The notes beneath the pieces are model-generated. The model did not search any database. It worked only from the letters and a program-made list of their open reading frames with translations, and was not told the DNA's origin. Positions 10,072 to 22,694 of a stretch of 64,000 nucleotides of DNA are shown here, one piece after another; position 1 is the stretch's first letter, and each line of letters begins with the position of its first letter. The DNA is from Candidatus Sumerlaeia bacterium (GTDB lineage: Bacteria > Sumerlaeota > Sumerlaeia > JADFCW01). The stretch is from assembly GCA_026415575.1 (NCBI GenBank), contig JAOAGV010000002.1, positions 30,308 through 94,307 of the forward strand, written 5' to 3'. The position numbers were made by a program, and so were the translations under genes.

Positions 10072-10737
10072 GTGGAGTTCAGTTGGGAGTCGCTCGGCGA
10101 CTATGCAGCGCGGCTGTTTCTGGCCGTGCTTTTGGGCGTTGTGGTCTCGTTCCGGCGCAAAATGACGCGCTACGATCAGTACGTGGTGCAGGCGCACGCC
10201 TTTTTGTCGGTCGCCGGTGCCATGTTTATGATGATTATCGCAGGCGAGTTGTTTCGCGCGGTCGGCCTGCTGGGGGCGGCCAGCGTCGTCCGCTACCGCT
10301 ATGCCATCCGCAATCCGCGCGACGCCGGAACGCTGATTATCGCATTAGGGTTGGGCATGGCCTGCGGGTCGGGGCTTTTGCTGCTGGCCGTGTCGGGCGG
10401 CATCTTTGTCGCCGCAGTGGCGTATGTGTTGGATCATTTCCCGCAATTGCTGATTTTTCCGCGCATCCGCCAGAGGGAGCAAATTGTGCTGTCGCTGACC
10501 ACGCGCGACTACGACCACACCATGAAGCGGCTTCACGAGGTGTTCGACAAATACACGATCAACTATGTGCTTCGCACCATGGCCCAAAAGACCAGCGAGA
10601 CCAAGGCCGGCATGTCGGACATCGAAATGCTGGTCGAATATCCCATCGAACTTAGTTTGACAGACTTGACATTTGAGCTGACGGATGACAACATAGTGCG
10701 AATTTCGTGGGAACCGCCGCGAACGCTCTTCTACTAA
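10072..10737 (+). CDS. DUF4956 / MgtC-SapB-like membrane protein
   Basis: AAAGGAGAAGGGC-GTG start; multiple TMs; VGLLGAASVVRYRYAIRNPRDAGTLIIALGLGMACGSG resembles the DUF4956/MgtC-like core. Confidence 0.75.
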   Translation: MEFSWESLGDYAARLFLAVLLGVVVSFRRKMTRYDQYVVQAHAFLSVAGAMFMMIIAGELFRAVGLLGAASVVRYRYAIRNPRDAGTLIIALGLGMACGSGLLLLAVSGGIFVAAVAYVLDHFPQLLIFPRIRQREQIVLSLTTRDYDHTMKRLHEVFDKYTINYVLRTMAQKTSETKAGMSDIEMLVEYPIELSLTDLTFELTDDNIVRISWEPPRTLFY

Positions 10738-10750
10738 TTGCTGAAGGCTG

Positions 10751-10806
10751 CATGCTGAATGTTGAACGTGGAACGCAGGGCTCGGAACGCAGAATGCAGA
10801 ACGCGC
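10751..10806. repeat. Low-complexity GAACGCA/GAATGCA word repeat
   Basis: ...TGAATGTTGAACGTGGAACGCAGGGCTCGGAACGCAGAATGCAGAACGC...; the same words occur at 9586-9598. Confidence 0.6.
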
Positions 10807-10890
10807 GGGGTCGAAAGTCGAAGGCGGAGTTTCCGTTCATAGTTCCAACACGGGTTTGTCCCAGCCGGTTTGGAGTTCAACCTGAAAGGA

Positions 10891-12581
10891 ATGTATTTTC
10901 CTTTTTTTGCCCCGCCGTTCAACGCGCCGGACTTCGCTGGATACCCGCGGCGCTTGCTGTGTGTCTGTGCGTCTCCTGCCTGACATCGGGCGGGTTAGAT
11001 CGTTTCCCGCGCGAAACACAGCGGGCGCGGCCATTTTCGCCCATGCCGCCTCCGCCGCCCGTGGCAGTTCCCATTGTCCCCCCTGCGGCATCCGCCAATC
11101 CAACAACCGCGTCGCTTGCCGTATCCGCTCACCCTGCCGCCGAACTGGCGTCGGACACCTCCTTGCAGGAGATCACGTTCACCAGTCAGACCTTGGGCGA
11201 ATGGCTGTATTGGATTGTCTCGGCAACCGAGGAGAACGATCCGCAGCTCAAGTACTACGACACCGAGCTGCGCCGGATTGATGCCGAAATGAAGGAAATC
11301 TGGGCGTCGGTTGGATGGGAATTCGAGGTCACCCGCCAGCGCTCGACGTTCGACGCCGAGCGGCATGAAACGCGCGCCGGCACCACACTGGGCCTGGACG
11401 GCCGACCGCGCCGTGCCTACGATCTGTTCGGCGACTACGACCGGCGCGACCGCGACCTGATTCTCCGGCTGAAGCGCTCGTTTCTCGGCCCCGACCACGA
11501 GGTCTATGTCCGAATCTGCGGTCGGCGGCTGGAGAAAATGGACGCGGTGATCCAAAAACAACAAACGCGCCGCGACATCCATCTGCTCATCCTTCAAGCC
11601 GTCCTCGACATTCTTTACCGCCGGAACATTCTCCCGCTGGTGGCCGAGCAGATCGCCCTCGTACAGCGCAAGACCGCGTTGCTCGAGGTGCTGCAAAAAG
11701 CCGGCGAAGTTCTGCGCAAGGACCTTCTGGCGGCGCAAAAACAGTTGCGCGCCTACGAGGAACAGCAAGCGATTCATCAGAATGCAATTACTCTGGCGCT
11801 GAACGACCTGCGCGGCCGTACGGGCCTGACGACGCTGACCCTGCCAACGCAGTTCCAACTGGCCGTCGCGCCATCCACATTGCCGGCGACACTGGCCGTG
11901 CCGGACGCCACAAGTCAGGCGCTGCAAAACCGCCTCGAATATCTTGTGGCGCAGATGCGGGTCGAACTGGCCGAACAGATGACGCGCTACATGTCGTGGT
12001 ATTTTCCGCGTGTGGACTTCGAGGTTGCTTGGAACAAGTATCGGGAAACCCGCGAGTTCCTCGACGAGACGCGCGACGAGCGCGGCCGCGAACTTACCAC
12101 CGAACTGACGGTCAATATCCCGCTCGGCCTGCCGTATCGCACCTGGAAACGCCGCGAGTCGTTTCGTGCCACACAGGAGGGCTACGCGCTGCAGGTCGCC
12201 CGCATGCGGCGCAGCATCGAGAACGAAATCCTTCGCGCCTCGCTCGACTTGCAGCAGGCCCGATTGCATTGCGAGGTGGCGCGCGAGGCCCTCGAACACG
12301 CTCTGGAAGAACTGCGCGCCACCGAACTGGTCGCCCGGCAGCTGCCCGGCGAAATTCAGGGCATCGCCGCCCTGAGCACGCTGGACGCCCAACTCAAGGT
12401 GCTCGACGCCCGCATGGCCCTGACCGCAGCCGAACATCAATTGTTGCTTGCACACATGCAGTGGGACTATCACATTGGCTGTTCGCCGATGGATGAGGCG
12501 TCGGCCGGTTTTGCCGATGCCGATTTGCGCGCGGCCGAAAAAATTGGCTGGCTTCGATGGTGGACGAGTTTGATCAAATAA
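10891..12581 (+). CDS. TolC-like outer membrane efflux lipoprotein; start/frame problematic
   Basis: Lipobox ALAVCLCVSC; long alpha-helical TolC/OMF-like repeats; overlaps hlyD. No credible start in this frame (see finding on the T7 run at 10902-10908). Confidence 0.75.
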
Positions 12582-13756
12582 CCCGCAGCCGCTGGCGCCG
12601 ATGGACCGCCGCCGTCGTGGTCAACCTCGTGCTTCTGGCCATGATCGGCCTCGCCGTGTATGTGCTGCTTGTCCAGTCGGGCACCATCGCGATTCCCTCG
12701 ATTGTGGCCAGCCGCACCATTCGCATCAGCGCCGAGCATCAGGGCAACATCAAGGCTCTCCATGTCATCGAAACCCAGGAGTTCAAGGTCGGCGACGTGC
12801 TGTTCGAGCTCGAAGACACGGTGCTGGACACCCGAATCGCCGAAGCGGAAAAGGCCATCAAGTCCTATGAGCAGCAGATTGCCGAGCAGGAATCCGAGCT
12901 GGCCCGCCGCCTGCGCGAGTTTGATCCCAAAATGAAAGTCGAAACGGCCGAACAGATGGTCCGCGAGAAACAAACAGCGCTGAAAAATCTCGCTCCGCTT
13001 CTGGATGCCGCCAACCGCCGGCTGGCCTATCAGGAAGACCGCCTCAAGAGAGCCGAAGACCTCTTTTCTTCGGGCGCCATCACGCGCGCCCGCCTCGACG
13101 CCTACCGACTCGATGTCGAAACCGAGCGGGCGGCGCGCGACAAGATTCTTGCTGATCAGAAAATTCTCGAAACGGAAATCCGCGGCCTTGAAAACCAGAT
13201 CGCCGCCTACAAAACCATGCTGGCCGACCTCACCCGCTCGACCGCCGAGCAGGAACGCGCCCTGCGCGACAAACTCACCCAAGCCCGAAGTAATCTGGCC
13301 AATCTTCAAAGCGAGCGCGCGCTGCTGACCGGGCGCGCCAAGGTCAGCGGCTCGGTGGCCATGCGTCTGAAGAACGAAGGCGAAGGCGTTTCGGCCGGCG
13401 AGCCGGTCATCGAGGCCACCTCCGGCGACGACGTCTGGGTCGAGGCTTACTTCAAACCCGAAGACGCCACCACCGTCCACTCGGGCGACCGACTTGTCGT
13501 ACGCTACGGCAACCAGACTTTCCCGGTCACCGTCGAAAGCATCGGCCTGATTACCAAGCCGTTTCCCCTGCAGCGGTCGGCGATGATTCTCGCGCCGGAG
13601 AACCTTGTGGTCGTCAAGCTGGTGTTCGACCAACCTGATCAAGCGCGGCAGGCGGGGCTTCGGCCCGGCATGCAGGTTACCACTGAATTGACCCGCCGCG
13701 AGGGATTGCTGGCCCGCATAGGCTGGAAGCGCGGAAAGGCAACGGCAGGCAGATAG
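12557..13756 (+). CDS. HlyD-family membrane fusion protein
   Basis: N-terminal TM, GNIKALHVIETQEFKVGDVLFELEDTVLDTRIAEAEKAI biotinyl-lipoyl-like half, long coiled coil, VSGSVAMRLKNEGEGVSAGEPVIEATSGDDVWVEAYFKPED. Confidence 0.9.
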   Translation: MVDEFDQITRSRWRRWTAAVVVNLVLLAMIGLAVYVLLVQSGTIAIPSIVASRTIRISAEHQGNIKALHVIETQEFKVGDVLFELEDTVLDTRIAEAEKAIKSYEQQIAEQESELARRLREFDPKMKVETAEQMVREKQTALKNLAPLLDAANRRLAYQEDRLKRAEDLFSSGAITRARLDAYRLDVETERAARDKILADQKILETEIRGLENQIAAYKTMLADLTRSTAEQERALRDKLTQARSNLANLQSERALLTGRAKVSGSVAMRLKNEGEGVSAGEPVIEATSGDDVWVEAYFKPEDATTVHSGDRLVVRYGNQTFPVTVESIGLITKPFPLQRSAMILAPENLVVVKLVFDQPDQARQAGLRPGMQVTTELTRREGLLARIGWKRGKATAGR

Positions 13757-14087: not shown

Positions 14088-16319
14088 CTATTTTCTCTTC
14101 GTTGTTTTCTGCGTTTTTTTCTCGTTTGTCTCTTTATCGCCAACCGCAACCGACGGCGCATACATCGGCAGATAGCGATAATAGACTTCCAAGCACAGGG
14201 CGGCCATGGCGGTCTCGACCACGCGTCCGCCTTGCGTACCCCACTGGCCTCGCGGCGGCCAGCTCCCTTTACGAGCGCCTTCGGTTTCCTGCGAGGCGAG
14301 CAGCACGCGACGCATGGCCCGGTTCCATTCCTCCCACGCCGGCCCCTGATGCTGGAAAAGGGCAAGGGTGCCGTAATACCAATAATACATATTGGGGTCG
14401 GAATTGCGGGGCAGATTCTTGCGCAGATAGTCGGCGGCCTCGACCATCGCCGCATCGGTCGGTTTTACACCCATCAGTTGGCGGGCAAACATGGCCTCGG
14501 CGGTCATCGAGGGCGTTGGCGACTTGCCTTGATAGCCGCAAAGGCCCCCGTGCTGGCCGCCACCGACGCGCTCGAACCACAACGCCGCCCGTTTCAGTGC
14601 GTCGCCGGGAACGGGCAAACCGGCCATCTGTGCGCTCTTGAGAGCCATGACCTGCCAGCCGAAAACGGATGTATCCCCCGGCTCTTCGGGCGTCATAGCG
14701 TGTGGGTAATAGCGCCAGCCGCCGGTTCGCGGGTTTTGCGCGGCGGCGATAAACCGCACAGCGTCGGTAACAGCCTTCCGGAGTGCGGCATCCTGCGTCA
14801 TGCCGCAGGCCTCGGCCAGAGCAATGGTTGCCATGCCCTGGTCATACATGTTGCCCTCGCCGCGAAGATCGCCCCCCTCTCGCATTTGGGAAAGCAGCCA
14901 CGCGATGCCGGCGGCCACGTTCTGGCGATAGGGGCCGGCGGACTTGTGCGTATGGTTGGCGCCAAGAAAGGCCAGAAGCGCAAGACCCGTTGCGGCAACG
15001 TCCTGTTTGCCGTAGCCCCCCTCGCCGCCGCACTGCTTGCAACGGGCGTCGAATCCCTCGATGTCCCAGCGGCCGTCGTCGCTTTGATGGGCGGCAAGCC
15101 AAGCCAGAGCATCTTGGACCGCCTTTTCGGTTTCGGTGGTGCCGCCGAGGCGTTCGAGAACTTTTTCGCGGCGGGACGGCTCGCGCAGCACATAGGTCTC
15201 TTCGCTGACCGGTCGTTCTTCGAGAACGAACGGCGGAGGGACGATGCGCGGCGCTGGATGTGGCCGCAGAATCCGCGGCGGCACCGCCGGCTCGACCGGT
15301 CGGCCCTCCGGAGTGCCGGCCGGCGCCGGCAAGGCGACAAGGCTTTCGATCAATGGCGCACCGGGCCCTAGCGGCGGTGCCTGCGCCGGACCGCCCGCAC
15401 TCGGCGCAGGAACCGCCGGCAGCTCGGCCAGCGGCAATTCGATCTTCTGCAGCGGCGACGAAAGCGTCGGCGAAGATTCGGACTCCGGCGGCGGTTTGAC
15501 CGGCGACCGAACCGCTTCCAGTTGAATGGGCGGGAGCGCAATGCGGAAGTCGGTGGCGGGCCGGGCGGCCAGCGGCGTGGGCAGCTCGCGTCGCTCCGTC
15601 GGCCGCGGCGGTGCCAGATCGGGTGGAAGGACGAAGGCCGCGGTGTCCACGTGGCCGGGAGCAATTTCCCTTTCCTCTTGGACGGGGGCGGCGCGCGGCA
15701 ACTCAATGTCTGCCGGCTGGGGAGCGACGGCCTCTGCTGCCGTGGCGTCGGCCAGAGGCAGGTCGGTCGTTTCCTCCCGGATGCCGAGGCTGACTTTTTC
15801 CTCGATGAGGCTTTCGCTGTCGAGCAGCACCTCAAACTCCGGATCGCGCAGTGTTTGGAGTACTCGCTGAGTCAGAACCACCGACTCGAACGAGACGAGG
15901 AAGAAAACATGAATAATGGCGGAGAGGATGAATGATCGCGCCGTGACTGTGCGCCAGCGTGTTGCTTTCCGGCTTCGCAGCGAGGCGACCAGCAAAACGA
16001 GAAACACAATGCCCAGAAGCCACAAAAACAGCGGGCCCCGCAGCCGCTCCCACAGCACCTGTCGAAAGCGGGCGATCAGCTCGGCGCGGTCGGGAGCGGG
16101 CGGCGACGGCGTCAACACAGGTGGCGGTGGCACCGGGGGAAGTTCGATGGTCTCCAGAGCGGGCCGCGGCGGCAGAATCTGCTCCGGCAGAATCGGCAGC
16201 ACCACCGTCGAGCGGTAATCTTCCAGCTTGACGACTTGTGGTTTGGGCGCGGCAGCCGGAAAGGCCGGACGTGCAAAAACAAAAACACCGGCCGTTAGAA
16301 CGAGCGGAATCCACGGCAT
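14088..16319 (-). CDS. TonB-like membrane anchor, Pro-rich linker and alpha/alpha-toroid (prenyltransferase/squalene-cyclase-like repeat) domain
   Basis: Two TMs (GPLFLWLLGIVFLVLLVASLRS; SFILSAIIHVFFLVSFESV with TonB-like SxxxH), about 230 aa Pro-rich region, then repeated DDGRWDIEGF / TGLALLAFLG / GMATIALAEACG / GGWRYYP / GWQVMALKSAQMAG / ETAMAALCLEVYYRY toroid motifs. Start could be ATG 16319 or 16442. Confidence 0.82.
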   Translation of the reverse strand: MPWIPLVLTAGVFVFARPAFPAAAPKPQVVKLEDYRSTVVLPILPEQILPPRPALETIELPPVPPPPVLTPSPPAPDRAELIARFRQVLWERLRGPLFLWLLGIVFLVLLVASLRSRKATRWRTVTARSFILSAIIHVFFLVSFESVVLTQRVLQTLRDPEFEVLLDSESLIEEKVSLGIREETTDLPLADATAAEAVAPQPADIELPRAAPVQEEREIAPGHVDTAAFVLPPDLAPPRPTERRELPTPLAARPATDFRIALPPIQLEAVRSPVKPPPESESSPTLSSPLQKIELPLAELPAVPAPSAGGPAQAPPLGPGAPLIESLVALPAPAGTPEGRPVEPAVPPRILRPHPAPRIVPPPFVLEERPVSEETYVLREPSRREKVLERLGGTTETEKAVQDALAWLAAHQSDDGRWDIEGFDARCKQCGGEGGYGKQDVAATGLALLAFLGANHTHKSAGPYRQNVAAGIAWLLSQMREGGDLRGEGNMYDQGMATIALAEACGMTQDAALRKAVTDAVRFIAAAQNPRTGGWRYYPHAMTPEEPGDTSVFGWQVMALKSAQMAGLPVPGDALKRAALWFERVGGGQHGGLCGYQGKSPTPSMTAEAMFARQLMGVKPTDAAMVEAADYLRKNLPRNSDPNMYYWYYGTLALFQHQGPAWEEWNRAMRRVLLASQETEGARKGSWPPRGQWGTQGGRVVETAMAALCLEVYYRYLPMYAPSVAVGDKETNEKKTQKTTKRK

Positions 16320-16425
16320 GCGCGCCCGAACCAAACTGTGCGCAACCAGCCGGCAAGTCCGCGGGGCACAGGCCGCTTTTCCTGCACACGCCGGCGGCAG
16401 CCGTGCAGCAACTTTAAGGAGATTT

Positions 16426-16842
16426 CTATCGCGGCAATTCATAACCGATATTGGCCTGACGGATTCCGCATTCCTTGCAGACAGCCACGGCGGCGGCAAC
16501 ATAGCCGTGAAGCGCCTGTTTGTCCGCCCGCACCAGAACCTTCTGGTCGGGATTGACTTTGACGGCGCGCGAGAGAAGAGCCCGCAATTCATCGGGCGAG
16601 ACTTCGTTGCCGCCGACGATGTAGGTGCCGTCGCGCCGCACGTTGAGAATCAGCAGCGAGCGCGCGGTCGAACTCAGCGTCTCCTCGATGTGCGTCTGCG
16701 GCAGGTTGACCTGAATGTCGCGCTCTTCTTCGTGGAACTGCGCGCTGACCAGAAAGAAGATGATCAGGTTGAACATCAGGTCCACCAGCGGCGTAATGTT
16801 GATCGAAGGTCGTTCGCGAATGTGATGTCGGGGAATGTGCAT
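16426..16842 (-). CDS. ExbD/TolR family protein
   Basis: RERPSINITPLVDLMFNLIIFFLVSAQF (Asp-containing TM), DPDQKVLVRADKQALHGYV. Confidence 0.92.
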   Translation of the reverse strand: MHIPRHHIRERPSINITPLVDLMFNLIIFFLVSAQFHEEERDIQVNLPQTHIEETLSSTARSLLILNVRRDGTYIVGGNEVSPDELRALLSRAVKVNPDQKVLVRADKQALHGYVAAAVAVCKECGIRQANIGYELPR

Positions 16843-16967
16843 GGCAAGACAGTCTTTCAGTTGGGCTGGGTTAAGATGGAGAATACCCGCGACTTGGATA
16901 ATATGGACAACACGGCCGACATGAGCCAAACAGATGTTCTTTTTCTTCTTCCCTCATCCCTCATCCT

Positions 16968-17843
16968 TCATCCCTCTGCTTCTTTATTGGCTTTGGGCGG
17001 TTCGCTATAGACGGCAGTTCCGGGCGCGTCGTGGCACTGGTCGAGAAACTCATTGCTGATGGCCTCGAATTCATCGGCAAGGCTTTCGATGCGGCTGAGA
17101 AAATAGTAATACAGCAGCAATGCGGGAATGGCCACCGTCAGGCCGGCGGCCGTGGTGATCAGGGCGACATAGATGCCGGAGGCCAAAAGTTCGCCGCGCC
17201 CCAGACCGTGCTGGGCCGCACTGCGAAAGGCTCCGATCATCCCATAGATTGTTCCGAGCAGTCCAAGCAGCGGAGATATGGTACCGACAATGGCAAGTGT
17301 TTCCAGTCCGCGGCGCAAACGCGCCACTTCGCTGGTGGCAGCGTCCTGCACTGCCTGTTCGAGGATTTCGAGCCGCCGGCCCAGTTTCAAGATGCCCGCG
17401 CGGATGATATTCGAGAGCGGCGACGGCGTGCGGTCACAATACGCCAGAGCGCCGGCAATGTTGGTGCCGTCCGGTCCAAAGGCAACGACCAGTCCCTTCA
17501 TGAATCCGGGCGGGATGATTCGATTGCGCCGCAGGCTGAACAGCCGTTCGAGCGCAATCGCCAGTGCAACCAGCGAACACAAGCCGATGGGGATCATCAT
17601 CGGGCCGCCGGCGACAATCAGTTCCCAGAGGGTTTTTGGGTGTTGGAAGGGAATGGCCGGCGGGCGGTCGCCCAGAACGGCCGGCGGATTGGCGGGTGGT
17701 TCGGGGGCCGGAGCGGCTTTCGGTGTTGAAAGCGCAAGAACCGTCATGGCGAGCAGTGAAGCCGCCATGAAAAACTGCTTCCAGCGTGTTACCGCCATGG
17801 ATGGGATGGACAGAATGCTTGGTGGCTTCATTTTTCTTTTCAT
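16968..17843 (-). CDS. MotA/TolQ/ExbB proton channel family protein
   Basis: GGPMMIPIGLCSLVALAIALERLFSL; LETLAIVGTISPLLGLLGTIYGMIGAFRS; GIYVALITTAAGLTVAIPALLLYYYFL. Confidence 0.92.
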   Translation of the reverse strand: MKRKMKPPSILSIPSMAVTRWKQFFMAASLLAMTVLALSTPKAAPAPEPPANPPAVLGDRPPAIPFQHPKTLWELIVAGGPMMIPIGLCSLVALAIALERLFSLRRNRIIPPGFMKGLVVAFGPDGTNIAGALAYCDRTPSPLSNIIRAGILKLGRRLEILEQAVQDAATSEVARLRRGLETLAIVGTISPLLGLLGTIYGMIGAFRSAAQHGLGRGELLASGIYVALITTAAGLTVAIPALLLYYYFLSRIESLADEFEAISNEFLDQCHDAPGTAVYSEPPKANKEAEG

Positions 17844-17877
17844 TTTTCCCTTTTCCCTTTTCGCTTTTTGGTTCCGC

Positions 17878-20800
17878 TTATCGTTGTCCGATTTCGGCGA
17901 GGCGTTTTTCGGCCAGACGCGCTTCGTCGGTGTCGGAATACTTCGATTTTACTTCCTCATAGCGTGCGCGGGCTTCCTCGAGACGGCCCATTTTTTCGAG
18001 GGCGCGTCCGGCCTCCAACAATGCGCGCGCGCTCCATTGCGGAAATGAATAAAGAATTTCGACTTTCATCAACTCCTTAACCGCGTCGGCGAGACGGTTT
18101 TGGGCAAACAGACACTCGCCGATCTGAAACTGCGCCCGCGCCGCCCACTCGCCCTGATAGCCCGAATCGAGCAGCGCGCGATAGGCCGCCACCGCGTCCT
18201 CGTGGCGTTTCAGGTTCTCGCGCGCCCAACCCAAATAGAATTGCGCGCGCGGGGCAAGGCTGCCCGATGGATACTTCGCCAGAAACTCCGCCGCCGACTT
18301 TTCCGACGCCTCAAACCGCTCCGCCAGAGCCTGACACTCCACAAGACGCAGCAGGCTCTCCGCATGGAGATCGAAAGTCGGATACTCCTTCGCGATCCGC
18401 GCGTAGTGCAAGATTGCCTTGTCGTATTCCTTCAACCGGAACCGTGCCTCGCCCGCCTGATACGCCGCCTGCGGCGCCAAAGCGGACGTGGGCATCTCGC
18501 CGGCCAGCCGCTCGAACGCGGTGGCCGCCCGCGCCCAATCGCCCTTTTCGAACCAGCACCAGCCGAGGCGGTAAAGTGCGCGCGATTTGAGCGCAGCGTC
18601 CCGTGTTTTTTCCACCACCGGCTCAAGGCGCGCGATGGCTGCATTCCATTGTTTCGCGTCAAATTCCAGTTCGGCCAGTTCGACCGCCGCCGCCGCGGCA
18701 AGCGGGCTTTCCGGAAAATCGCGCATCAACCGCTCGTAGCGCGCGCGCGCCGCTTCGGGTTCCTTCAGCCGGCGAAACGCCCACGCCGATTCATAGAGCG
18801 CGCGATCACTCAGGGCCGACCGCGGCGAGCGCTCCAGAAGCCGCTCATATTGCTCGACGGCCCAGCGGTCGCGTCCGGCTTTGGCCACCGCGGCGCCGAG
18901 CTGCACCAGCGCTGTATCGGCCAGTTCGAGCGGCGCCGTGGTTTTCAGCACCCGCTGCAGCAATTCGTCGGCTTGGGTGAATTGCTCCAGTTGAATCAGC
19001 GCAAGGGCGCGATGGCAGGCCGCTTCGCCGGCGCGCGGGTCGTTCGGATAGCGTTTTGCAAAGTCCTCGAACCGCCGTGCCGCTTCTTCCCAGCGGCGTT
19101 GCTCGGCGGCCAGAGAAGCCAGATTGTAATCGGCGGCCGCGGCAAGAGGACCGGCGTCGGGCCGCGCCAACAGATGCTCGAACCTCCGGCGCGCGTCGTC
19201 GTAGGCCTTCCGCTCGTATTGTGTCTGTCCGGCCTCGAACAGGGCGCGCGGCACGAGCAGACTTTCGCCGCATTCCTTGACCACGCGGTCGAATGCGGCA
19301 ATTGCCTCGGCAGTTTTTCCGCATTCGCGCAGCGCAATCCCCCACTTCAGGAGCGCATCGTCGCGGTTCGCGGTGTTGCCGGCGTGGGCAACATATCGCT
19401 CAAGATACGCCGCGGCTTCGCTCCACTTTTTCATCTGCACCAACGCATCGCCCGTCAGATAGAGCGCCTGCGCCAGAACCGAATCCGTCGTGGCTCGGTC
19501 GGCCAGCGGCTGAAGCAGCCGGACGGCTTCATCAAACCGACCGCGTGCATGGGCGATGGCGCCGATCCGGAATCGCGCCCGTTCGACATGCTCCGAGCGC
19601 GGATAGCGCTCGATGAAGCTGCGATAGCGATTTCCGGCTTCCTCAAATTGCTTGAGGAGAAAGAGGTTTTCGGCGGCCAAAAACCGGAGCGCCTCTGCGC
19701 GCGACCCTTCGCCGGCACTGCGCAGAAGCGTCTCGCATCGCTTGAGGCTTTCCTCGTAGCGCCCGGCCTGATGAAGACAGAGGCAGGCGGAATAGGCGGC
19801 CTCGCCCGCGCGCGGATGGCTGGCAAACTCCGAAGCAAACGTCCCAAATGTCCCGGCCGCTTCGACAAACCGCTTCTGGCCCATCTGCAACGCGGCCAGC
19901 TCCAGCAACATGTCGCCGCGCAGGTCGCTGTCGCGATGCTGCTTCAAGGCCCCGGCCAGAACCTGTTCGGCCTCGGCAGATTTGCCCCGTGCGGCCAATG
20001 CGCGCGCACGCCAGAATTGCGCATCGTCGGTCCATTCGTCGGCGGTTTCAGCCAGACGGGCCAGCAGTTTGTCGGCCTCGTCGGCGCGGCGAAGTTCCAG
20101 AAGTGCGCGCGCGCGATAGAGCTCGCCAAGACGCGTGAGAGGGCTGTTTGGGAAATCGCGGCGGAGTTGATCGGCCACCTCGACCGCCTTGTCGTATTCC
20201 GCGGCCTCGAACTGCGCCAGCACAAGCCCCGCCAACGCTTCGGCCCCGAAGTTACCCTTGCGGCGGCGGGCGGCGTCATAGCGACGGGCGGCCTCGGCGG
20301 GTTTTCCCGCCTCGCGCAGACAATCGCCGAGCAGAACTTCGGCCTGCTGGGCATGGGGCGATTCGGGATTGTTCTTGAGAAACTCTTCGAGCCGCGCCTG
20401 TGCCTGCTCGAATTGCTTCAAGCGCGTCCGGGCCACCGACGATTGGAGAAGGGCGCGGGCGGCCAGAGGACTGTTCGGCCAGCGCCGCAGGAGAGTCTCG
20501 TAGTGGTCGGCGGCTTTTTGCCATTGCTCGCGCGCCAGAAAGCTTTCGGCCAGACCCGCCGCCGCATCGTCGGCCAGCTCGTGATCGCCGCGCTTCTCCA
20601 CCACCCATGCGAACGCCTTTTCGGCGCTCGCCGCATCGCCCAATGCCAAACGGCACTGGCCCAGCAGGCAGTGAACCTCGGCCGCTTGTGCGAAGCGGTC
20701 TTTCGAGGCCAGCGCCTCGAACTGTTCGGCCGCTTCTTTCATCCGGTCCAACTGATAGTAGCACAAGCCGAGTGCATAGCGGGCTTCATCGGCTTTCGGA

Positions 20801-21006
20801 TGGGTGGGATGCTTTTGAAGAAAGGCACGGTATTCTTCGGCGGCCAGTTCGTGCAGGCCGCTGTTGAACAGGCCGTTGGCCGTATACAGCTGTTCGCTGG
20901 CCGCGTCGCGCTTGGCCGGTGCCGCTGCGGCCAACAGTGCCGCTGCGCACACGGCCAGCCACGCCGCGCGCCACCTCGCACGCCTTGTCTGTTTGTGCAT
21001 CATCAA
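17878..21006 (-). CDS. Large exported tetratricopeptide-repeat protein (1042 aa)
   Basis: Signal peptide; many TPR/CpoB-like repeats (e.g. LAAEEYRAFLQKHPTHPKADEARYALGLCYYQL); same strand and adjacent to exbB. Confidence 0.9.
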   Translation of the reverse strand: MMMHKQTRRARWRAAWLAVCAAALLAAAAPAKRDAASEQLYTANGLFNSGLHELAAEEYRAFLQKHPTHPKADEARYALGLCYYQLDRMKEAAEQFEALASKDRFAQAAEVHCLLGQCRLALGDAASAEKAFAWVVEKRGDHELADDAAAGLAESFLAREQWQKAADHYETLLRRWPNSPLAARALLQSSVARTRLKQFEQAQARLEEFLKNNPESPHAQQAEVLLGDCLREAGKPAEAARRYDAARRRKGNFGAEALAGLVLAQFEAAEYDKAVEVADQLRRDFPNSPLTRLGELYRARALLELRRADEADKLLARLAETADEWTDDAQFWRARALAARGKSAEAEQVLAGALKQHRDSDLRGDMLLELAALQMGQKRFVEAAGTFGTFASEFASHPRAGEAAYSACLCLHQAGRYEESLKRCETLLRSAGEGSRAEALRFLAAENLFLLKQFEEAGNRYRSFIERYPRSEHVERARFRIGAIAHARGRFDEAVRLLQPLADRATTDSVLAQALYLTGDALVQMKKWSEAAAYLERYVAHAGNTANRDDALLKWGIALRECGKTAEAIAAFDRVVKECGESLLVPRALFEAGQTQYERKAYDDARRRFEHLLARPDAGPLAAAADYNLASLAAEQRRWEEAARRFEDFAKRYPNDPRAGEAACHRALALIQLEQFTQADELLQRVLKTTAPLELADTALVQLGAAVAKAGRDRWAVEQYERLLERSPRSALSDRALYESAWAFRRLKEPEAARARYERLMRDFPESPLAAAAAVELAELEFDAKQWNAAIARLEPVVEKTRDAALKSRALYRLGWCWFEKGDWARAATAFERLAGEMPTSALAPQAAYQAGEARFRLKEYDKAILHYARIAKEYPTFDLHAESLLRLVECQALAERFEASEKSAAEFLAKYPSGSLAPRAQFYLGWARENLKRHEDAVAAYRALLDSGYQGEWAARAQFQIGECLFAQNRLADAVKELMKVEILYSFPQWSARALLEAGRALEKMGRLEEARARYEEVKSKYSDTDEARLAEKRLAEIGQR

Positions 21007-21028: not shown

Positions 21029-21649
21029 CTACATGGCGACGGGCCATTTCAACTCCTCGCGCAGGCCGGTCAGCACGAGCGAAACGGCCTTGGCGGCGAG
21101 GAAGACATACAAGAGCCGCGCAATGATCAATCCGTCGTGCGGCCCCAGCACGCGCGCGAGCATCGGCGCGCCGCGCACAATTGCAAAAACCACCACAAAC
21201 GCCGCCAGCGCCGTCAGGATCATCAACACCGGGCCGTCGCGCTGCGACAAAATAATCGTCATGGCCAGAGTGCCCGGCCCCACCAGAATCGGAAACGCCA
21301 GCGGAAAATAGGCCAGAAACCGTTCTTCCTGCTGAGTGACTTTTATCTCCGCCATGGGGTTCAGCACGCCGCGCGCAGCCACGATGAACAGCAAAATGCC
21401 CCCGGCAATTTTGAACTCCCCCAAAGTAACTCCAAACAAATGCCGCAAACACACGTCGCCCACCAAGGCGAAAAACAAAACCATGCACAGCGCCGTCAAT
21501 ACGGCGGTATTCAACGTTCGGGCCCGGCGCTCCGGGTCCATCTTCGCCGTGAACTTCACAAACAGCGGGATATTGCCGATCGGGTTGAGCACGGCCAGCA
21601 ACAGCAGCATTTCGCGAAAAATCAAGGTTACTGTGGCAATCACATCCAT
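21029..21649 (-). CDS. MarC family integral membrane protein
   Basis: LLLAVLNPIGNIPLFVKFTAKMDPERRAR...FPLAFPILVGPGTLAMTIIL. Confidence 0.9.
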   Translation of the reverse strand: MDVIATVTLIFREMLLLLAVLNPIGNIPLFVKFTAKMDPERRARTLNTAVLTALCMVLFFALVGDVCLRHLFGVTLGEFKIAGGILLFIVAARGVLNPMAEIKVTQQEERFLAYFPLAFPILVGPGTLAMTIILSQRDGPVLMILTALAAFVVVFAIVRGAPMLARVLGPHDGLIIARLLYVFLAAKAVSLVLTGLREELKWPVAM

Positions 21650-21683
21650 TCAGGATATCCTTTCCTGCCGCGCCCGCACCGCC

Positions 21684-22694
21684 TCACGGCGAACGGGGTT
21701 CGCGAGCCATTTCCTGCACAATCGGCAGCAATCGCACGACATCTTCCGCCTTGGTGATTTCCACTTCCACGTGCCTCAGGTCCCACCGCTCCTCGAAGGA
21801 ATACGTTTGCCCCGGCGCCAACTTCACCGTCGGACTCATCGGCTCCAGTTCCGTCCGCTCTTGAGCATCCACATAAAGAGCGACCGTGTTGCCCCCGTCG
21901 CCGTAGTGTGCGTCGGCAAAGACCGGAAAGCGTTTGACATACAGCCAGCCGTTGCGAAATCCGGCCACCCAGCCCGTCATACTGTCGGCTCCTACTTTTT
22001 CCGTTTTTCTCCCCGGCACGGTAACAAGCAGATTGCCAATCCGTTGCACGCGCGGGGAACCGGGCGACTGCCCATCATAGCGGAATTCGCCGCGCTTGCC
22101 CTGCCGTTGCGACCAACCGGCGGGAAACCGGCTCCGCGGATTGATTTCCAGAAATGCATAGTCGGCGACGGTCAATGTGCGGTCCCACAGGCACCATTTG
22201 GCCTCCTGCGAGCCGATGTTCTTCATCGCCTGCTTTATAGTTAGACCCGCGCCGCTCGGGTCGAGTTTGATCTCCTTGATTAATTGTGCCGGGAGGTCTT
22301 CATCGGGCGGGCTGGTCAACCGCACCGAGAGCGGGCCAAGCCGCTCGACGGCATAGCGCCCCAGCCACAACGGCAGATGTATGGGCAGATTGGCAATCTC
22401 CGGGCCGATGTCGAGATTGTAGCCGCCGACAGGAAACCAGCGGTCGAGCGCTTCGAGCGTATCGCCTTCGGCGCGCGGGTCTTCCCAGAGGAAATTGGGG
22501 CCGCCGTCGCGGCTGTAATGGAGAATGCGGCCGCCGGCAGCCGGGGCAACAATCACACGTGCCGTGCCGTTGGAGATTTCCAGACAATCCGTCCATCCTT
22601 GAAACGCTACGGTTTGGATTTCCGCTTGCACCGTTGCTGTACCAACAAGACATCCAACCAGCACGCTCCCGAAGGTTGCAGAAAACCGACGCAT
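21684..22694 (-). CDS. DUF4380-type (mutarotase-like) exported protein
   Basis: Signal peptide; LEISNGTARVIVAPAAGGRILHYSRDGGPNFLWEDP; FEERWDLRHVEVEI. Confidence 0.7.
   Translation of the reverse strand: MRRFSATFGSVLVGCLVGTATVQAEIQTVAFQGWTDCLEISNGTARVIVAPAAGGRILHYSRDGGPNFLWEDPRAEGDTLEALDRWFPVGGYNLDIGPEIANLPIHLPLWLGRYAVERLGPLSVRLTSPPDEDLPAQLIKEIKLDPSGAGLTIKQAMKNIGSQEAKWCLWDRTLTVADYAFLEINPRSRFPAGWSQRQGKRGEFRYDGQSPGSPRVQRIGNLLVTVPGRKTEKVGADSMTGWVAGFRNGWLYVKRFPVFADAHYGDGGNTVALYVDAQERTELEPMSPTVKLAPGQTYSFEERWDLRHVEVEITKAEDVVRLLPIVQEMAREPRSP

Follow-up and report, generated by a model that had tools for sequence, protein, structure and literature searches.

Gene content and layout of the operon

On the minus strand of the 64,000-nucleotide stretch of Candidatus Sumerlaeota DNA analysed here (the window), four close-packed genes occupy positions 14088-21006. 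In transcription order they encode a TPR protein of 1042 aa, an ExbB/TolQ-like protein, an ExbD/TolR-like protein and a membrane protein, all as listed in the initial annotation (Table 1). The TPR protein begins with a hydrophobic N-terminal signal and carries repeats along its entire length; it matched the TIGR02795 (tol_pal_ybgF) profile at 1.8e-108 in 15 stretches. The ExbB has an N-terminal signal and a periplasmic extension, and in the ExbD the motor aspartate, as read from the sequence, is the Asp of ITPLVD. The ORF of the membrane protein, designated the transducer in the following, comprises 834 codons when counted from 16592, and its upstream part then overlaps exbD. The most likely start is the TTG at 16334, judging from its retention in the sister species (89% identity between the two transducer genes) and from its position directly before a signal peptide.

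Immediately upstream, the TPR gene is preceded by a MarC-family and a DUF4380-family gene (21029-22694, minus strand). Since the strand is shared and only about 20-35 bases separate the genes, the operon transcript may begin there. The DUF4380 gene is also found upstream in the sister species (L011), and neither gene was seen at the planctomycete four-gene loci described below. On the other side, an outer-membrane efflux protein and an HlyD-type adaptor are encoded as a convergent pair facing the transducer gene (10707-13756, plus strand).

Table 1. Features of the operon and its transducer, and related loci in other genomes
Feature	Position	Strand	Basis and remarks
Secreted TPR protein, YbgF/CpoB-type repeats	17878..21006	-	1042 codons; Pfam TPR_6 7.3e-74
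exbB/tolQ-like motor gene	16968..17843	-	291 aa; Pfam MotA_ExbB 5e-29
exbD/tolR-like gene	16426..16842	-	Pfam ExbD 4e-26; likely ATG start MHIPRHHIRERPSINITPLVDLMF
Toroid-tipped transducer gene (putative)	14088..16334	-	Start probably TTG 16334; ORF open as far as 16592
Predicted signal peptide of transducer, VRARMPWIPLVLTAGVFVFARPAFPA	16253..16334	-	Sequence and hydropathy
TM1, GPLFLWLLGIVFLVLLVASL	15975..16037	-	Predicted out-to-in; hydropathy and positive-inside reading
TM2, TARSFILSAIIHVFFLVSFESV	15879..15944	-	Predicted in-to-out; Ser-x3-His at 15909-15923
Pro-rich linker	15153..15872	-	240 aa, 47 Pro (20% proline)
Alpha/alpha-toroid domain, QW-type repeats	14154..15155	-	SQHop profiles; AlphaFold2 and Foldseek
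RNase III-Mfd-SurA-like-linked toroid loci	L136-L141, L145, L147, L150-L152, L154, L163, L166

Architecture of the putative transducer

From its N-terminus, the transducer has a signal peptide and a short Pro-rich segment, then TM1 and TM2 with a basic loop between them, and finally a linker and the toroid domain. TM segments and topology were assigned on the basis of hydropathy and charge. In the numbering of the 834-codon ORF, TM1 spans approximately residues 186-206 and TM2 residues 217-238, separated by the K/R-rich loop LRSRKATRWR. With signal peptide, TM1 and basic loop preceding it, TM2 is predicted to run in-to-out, the orientation that the TonB-like reading of the initial annotation calls for. 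The Ser-x3-His of TonB that had been pointed out in TM2 (SFILSAIIHVFF) is present as S224-x3-H228 and is conserved in relatives. The Leu and the second Ser of the SHLS motif are not kept in the window protein, which has Phe at His+7.

The Pro-rich linker leads into toroid repeats recognised by SQHop profiles and not into a TonB C-terminal domain, as had been claimed. No Pfam match to TonB_C (PF03544) was found in the transducer, and the reading as a plain TonB was dropped. There was likewise no Pfam match to VWA in the window transducer; a vWA protein used as a positive example (L088:558-1607) does give VWA.

The toroid domain

The SQHop_cyclase profiles, which scored slightly under their curated cut-offs, are the sole Pfam matches of the transducer, and inspection of the toroid sequence by itself shows three QW-like repeats (WLAAHQSDDGRW, FIAAAQNPRTGGW and LLASQETEGARKGSW). 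Structure prediction, proposed earlier as a check, was informative for part of the protein: the AlphaFold2 model of the toroid alone was all-helical, with a pTM of 0.73 and a mean pLDDT of 66.6, whereas the full-length prediction, made with four sequences, was of poor quality, with a mean pLDDT of 42.8. The best PDB matches of the toroid model were squalene-hopene cyclases, complement/alpha-2-macroglobulin toroids and glycan-active toroids, with TM-scores mostly of about 0.45-0.6. The predicted model and these matches support the fold class, not any function.

The catalytic DxDD motif, as read from the sequence, is absent from the window toroid, and the protein scored 30.3 bits against TIGR01507 (squalene-hopene cyclase; cut-off 431). 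Given the missing DxDD and the low family scores, a squalene cyclase was dropped as an interpretation; a thioester-domain protein was rejected because there is no CGEQ motif. Across 80 anchored toroids, many positions are near-invariant, above all W30, W147, Y149, D161, W167, Y208, Y257, Y260, W274, W277, W299, R311 and R327. A toroid paralog encoded in the same genome is secreted and has neither a membrane anchor nor SxxxH; its gene (L010:7502-8551, contig C206) follows one for a long coiled coil.

Relatives and conservation of the SxxxH motif

A single-sequence search with the whole transducer gave no match outside the genus, and a scan of genome contigs yielded only two Lentisphaerae loci and the sister species; the wider family required a profile search. 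With the latter, toroids of the window kind were detected in 126 of the 147 genomes of one phylum, that of genome G174. We infer this phylum to be Planctomycetota from dozens of PF07596 (DUF1559) proteins in G174, G309, G515, G469 and G499, and from one named planctomycete plasmid protein. Judging from these searches, the toroid system is not peculiar to its source genome and is part of a large, mostly planctomycete family.

For a closer comparison, 60 loci were taken around strong toroid profile matches. Among the 79 anchored toroid proteins in the sampled loci, 73 have a His in a TM segment and 67 an SxxxH, fractions that are not phylum-wide frequencies since the loci were picked by best toroid scores. 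Shuffling of the 79 proteins gave 5.9 SxxxH on average and never more than 13 in 2000 shuffles; as the relatives are not independent, the shuffles exclude composition only. When one protein per locus was counted, the motif was present in 55 of 64. Ser was found at position -4 of 67 among 93 TM His, and the other offsets counted gave at most 9. The SxxxH in TM2 exceeds chance: it is kept across homologs, with Ser specifically four residues before His. A Leu at His+7, as in SHLS, follows in 42 of the 73 proteins with a TM His. Two Lentisphaerae homologs of about 32% identity also carry an SxxxH (GSAVFHV), and none was found in five short-N, secreted-like toroids. Among the operon-linked proteins, L131 and L144 have Ala in place of the Ser, and the ExbB-ExbD-linked L155 has no TM His.

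Gene order and toroid phylogeny

An ExbD gene lies directly upstream of 16 of the 79 anchored toroid proteins, 15 of which have at least two TM segments and a TM His; the remaining 63 have no adjacent ExbD within the stretch at hand. The initial annotation had asked whether the gene order recurs in related genomes. It does: the full order TPR-ExbB-ExbD-toroid is found in the window, in the sister species and at four planctomycete loci (L130, L131, L132 and L144), and at L155 an ExbB-ExbD-toroid arrangement is situated at a contig end. At L131, L144 and L155, a TolB-type PD40 propeller is fused into the toroid protein. In the toroid tree, the operon-linked proteins fall into one half (support 96/88), in which the window protein pairs with L131 (94/86), and the solo toroids make up the other half. 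Among 25 genomes of the Sumerlaeota class, the operon occurred in one genus only and other ExbBD loci had no toroid neighbour, so the operon is patchy in this class.

At 13 single-TM toroid loci, the neighbouring gene encodes a SurA-like PPIase within an RNase III-Mfd-SurA-toroid cluster, which suggests that solo toroids may differ in task from operon toroids. Such an RNase III-Mfd-SurA-like PPIase cluster is followed in numerous planctomycete genomes by toroid genes of the single-TM SxxxH kind, frequently as tandem copies, and the association is strong (Table 1). A different cluster in G174 combines an ExbD-toroid pair with TPR-ExbB-ExbD-ExbD genes, a vWA/SxxxH protein and a PBP2-like transpeptidase. 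The vWA protein of L088 (558-1610), whose SxxxH TM helix reads VLSALFHIMV, is encoded near TPR-ExbB-ExbD-ExbD and an ExbD-toroid pair; both transducer types can thus share one neighbourhood.

The ExbB/ExbD motor

The window ExbB aligns to solved TolQ and ExbB structures, and ExbB and ExbD score slightly higher as TolQ/TolR than as ExbB/ExbD. In cryo-EM structures, S16/H20 of TonB and S18/H22 of TolA touch TM1 of ExbB/TolQ at two residues, a Ser and a Trp; the His of the TonB/TolA TM helix is essential (PMC12215075). The window ExbB has equivalents of the pore Thr, the TM3 Pro and the TM1 Ser, and a Leu at the position of Trp38. The toroid-locus ExbBs retain the two pore Thr, the Pro of TM3 and the TonB/TolA-contacting Ser of TM1 (residues from PMC12215075), and the contacting Trp is Leu or Val in all of them. 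The docking contact must therefore differ in detail. With a conserved SxxxH, a preserved TM1 Ser and a shared operon, docking of the TonB/TolA type would be the simplest reading.

In TonB, a D-box strand follows the TM helix and binds ExbD (PMC10907165). A D-box-like strand after TM2 is visible in several operon-type proteins, e.g. EPISIQTVP in L088. The motif is not enriched overall (15 of 80 linkers, 15.2 expected); in the operon subset it was found in 7 of 16 (3.0 expected) in a post hoc comparison.

Other Tol and Ton components of the genome

The genome contains three ExbD loci, in the window and on contigs C9 and C176. Contig C9 carries ParA-ParB-TolQ-TolR together with a TonB_C protein that has its own SxxxH; a genome-wide PF03544 search identified it as the sole TonB_C protein. 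A TonB elsewhere that pairs with the window ExbBD had been named as a possible objection, and the only candidate is encoded next to a TolQ and a TolR of its own. Contig C84 (L196) carries the TolB-Pal-CpoB set, made up of a PD40 protein, three lipoproteins of the OmpA type and one that resembles YbgF. With TolQRA on C9 and TolB-Pal-CpoB on C84, the window system exists in addition to Tol-Pal. Behind TolB on C84 come three consecutive OmpA/Pal-type lipoproteins, each different from the others, and then the YbgF/CpoB lipoprotein; such a triplicated Pal is unusual. The third ExbB-ExbD pair (L008:2542-4668, contig C176) lies beside a ParB-like gene, and no TonB-like protein was seen near it. No Plug domain of TonB-dependent receptors (PF07715) was found in the genome at E <= 0.1; this and the other absences are subject to its completeness of 92.6%. 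TonB_C was absent from 4 of 10 toroid-carrying relatives examined.

Comparison with known systems

The transducer shares with TonB a Ser-x3-His helix predicted to run in-to-out, a Pro-rich periplasmic linker and ExbBD genes in the operon. It differs in having no TonB_C and two TM segments plus a signal peptide, and in belonging to a genome in which no receptor plug was found. Common to the operon and Tol-Pal are the TolQ/TolR-like motor, a CpoB/YbgF-like TPR protein and, in three relatives, a fused PD40 propeller; unlike Tol-Pal, the operon has no TolA C-terminal domain, TolB or Pal. The parts list, with its CpoB-like TPR protein, TolQ/TolR-like motor and PD40 in relatives, is nearer to Tol than to Ton. 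The interpretation in the initial annotation is thus supported in part: its central proposal, an ExbB/ExbD-coupled transducer with a toroid tip, withstood the objections named with it, but its parts turned out to be closer to Tol than to Ton.

QW-type repeats and the toroid fold are shared with squalene-hopene cyclases and prenyltransferases, and one planctomycete relative is annotated as ‘prenyltransferase/squalene oxidase repeat-containing protein’. In contrast to squalene-hopene cyclase, the window protein has a single toroid that is predicted to be periplasmic, lacks DxDD and scores under the family cut-offs.

The closest parallel is to vWA force transducers, whose genes in the PVC group likewise lie together with TPR, tolQ and tolR genes (PMC12204202, Mol Biol Evol 2025). 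Both have the order TPR, TolQ-like, TolR-like and transducer, an SHLS-type TM helix, a Pro-rich or disordered linker and a non-TonB globular tip. The toroid system differs in its alpha/alpha-toroid tip, in having one ExbD instead of a pair and in the additional TM1 and signal peptide. The words toroid, squalene, prenyltransferase and terpenoid are absent from the text of PMC12204202, and we found no description of a toroid-type transducer in the open-access papers searched. The toroid branch is best read as a sister design to the vWA-tipped class of pmf transducers, which has been known since 2025.

Proposed mechanism and alternatives

Taken together, the four genes probably encode a Tol-like force transducer that is powered by the pmf and has the toroid as its gripping domain. 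The four products would form one trans-envelope machine, in which ExbB and ExbD, by their family membership, would be the proton-driven motor of the inner membrane. The Ser-x3-His face of TM2 would dock the transducer on ExbB as in TonB and TolA, and we consider this coupling to ExbBD to be quite likely. The first periplasmic residues of the transducer may add a strand to ExbD, for which the evidence is weak. The linker of about 240 residues would span the periplasm and bear the toroid, which would form the gripping end, the place that the C-terminal domain takes in TonB and TolA. That the transducer delivers force is a hypothesis with a good chance of being correct: with each motor cycle, some envelope structure would be pulled or let go, as part of a Tol-like role in maintenance or assembly. 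The toroid most likely binds a periplasmic or outer-membrane partner. The CpoB-like TPR protein would be the first candidate, and a direct partnership between the two is possible but rather doubtful.

Alternatively, the toroid might bind a ligand or act on a glycan, peptide or lipid, with the ExbBD-coupled helix regulating or positioning it without any pulling. Enzymes and binders are frequent among toroids (cyclases, glycan lyases/hydrolases, transcobalamin-like), the near-invariant W147, Y149, D161, W167, Y208, Y257, Y260, R311 and R327 could line a pocket, and there are weak Pec_lyase matches in L130, L132 and L144. However, the repeat fold itself also demands conservation of Gly and Trp, the window toroid lacks DxDD and a thioester motif, and its enzyme-family scores are far under the cut-offs. 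The interchangeability of TonB_C, vWA and toroid tips also favours binding and pulling, and such a gated binder or enzyme is thus unlikely.

The same pmf coupling could also serve outer-membrane-protein or wall assembly, with the toroid acting on SurA-delivered OMPs or wall-synthesis enzymes and not on an outer-membrane tether or the TPR protein. The SurA-like genes beside the 13 single-TM loci and the cluster in G174 with its PBP2-like transpeptidase, TPR-ExbB-ExbD-ExbD and vWA/SxxxH protein point in this direction. SurA-like or PBP2-like neighbours are absent, though, near the window operon and the planctomycete four-gene operons, and solo and operon toroids, as separate halves of the tree, may differ in task; we regard this variant as improbable. 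Very improbable in our view is the reading that the toroid protein merely adjoins exbBD, with SxxxH as a relic and the TolA/TonB-like C9 protein as the true transducer. E. coli Tol and Ton motors do cross-complement (PMC12215075), and the C9 protein likewise has an SxxxH. But C9 has its own TolR and TolQ (166 bits), gene order and motif are conserved jointly across phyla, and relatives without any TonB_C still have toroid transducers.

Implications

If the force-transducer reading holds, ExbB/ExbD motors in planctomycetes and their relatives would have tasks to perform even in genomes without a detectable TonB/TolA C-terminal domain. We tentatively suggest, at somewhat less than even chances, that, next to TonB/TolA and vWA proteins, the toroid proteins make up a third class of pmf transducers on the scale of a phylum. 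Where planctomycetes lack TonB_C, most of the envelope work powered by ExbBD might then fall to them, and the operon form would be a Tol-like machine with a toroid gripper at its centre, surrounded by a CpoB-like TPR protein, the motor and, in some lineages, a TolB-like propeller. A very common family with an enzyme-like name (‘prenyltransferase/squalene oxidase repeat’) would thereby be tied to ExbB/ExbD motors via a specific, mutable His. This would extend the view of the motor-docking helix as a module which has been fitted with varied gripping domains, be it TonB_C, vWA or a toroid.
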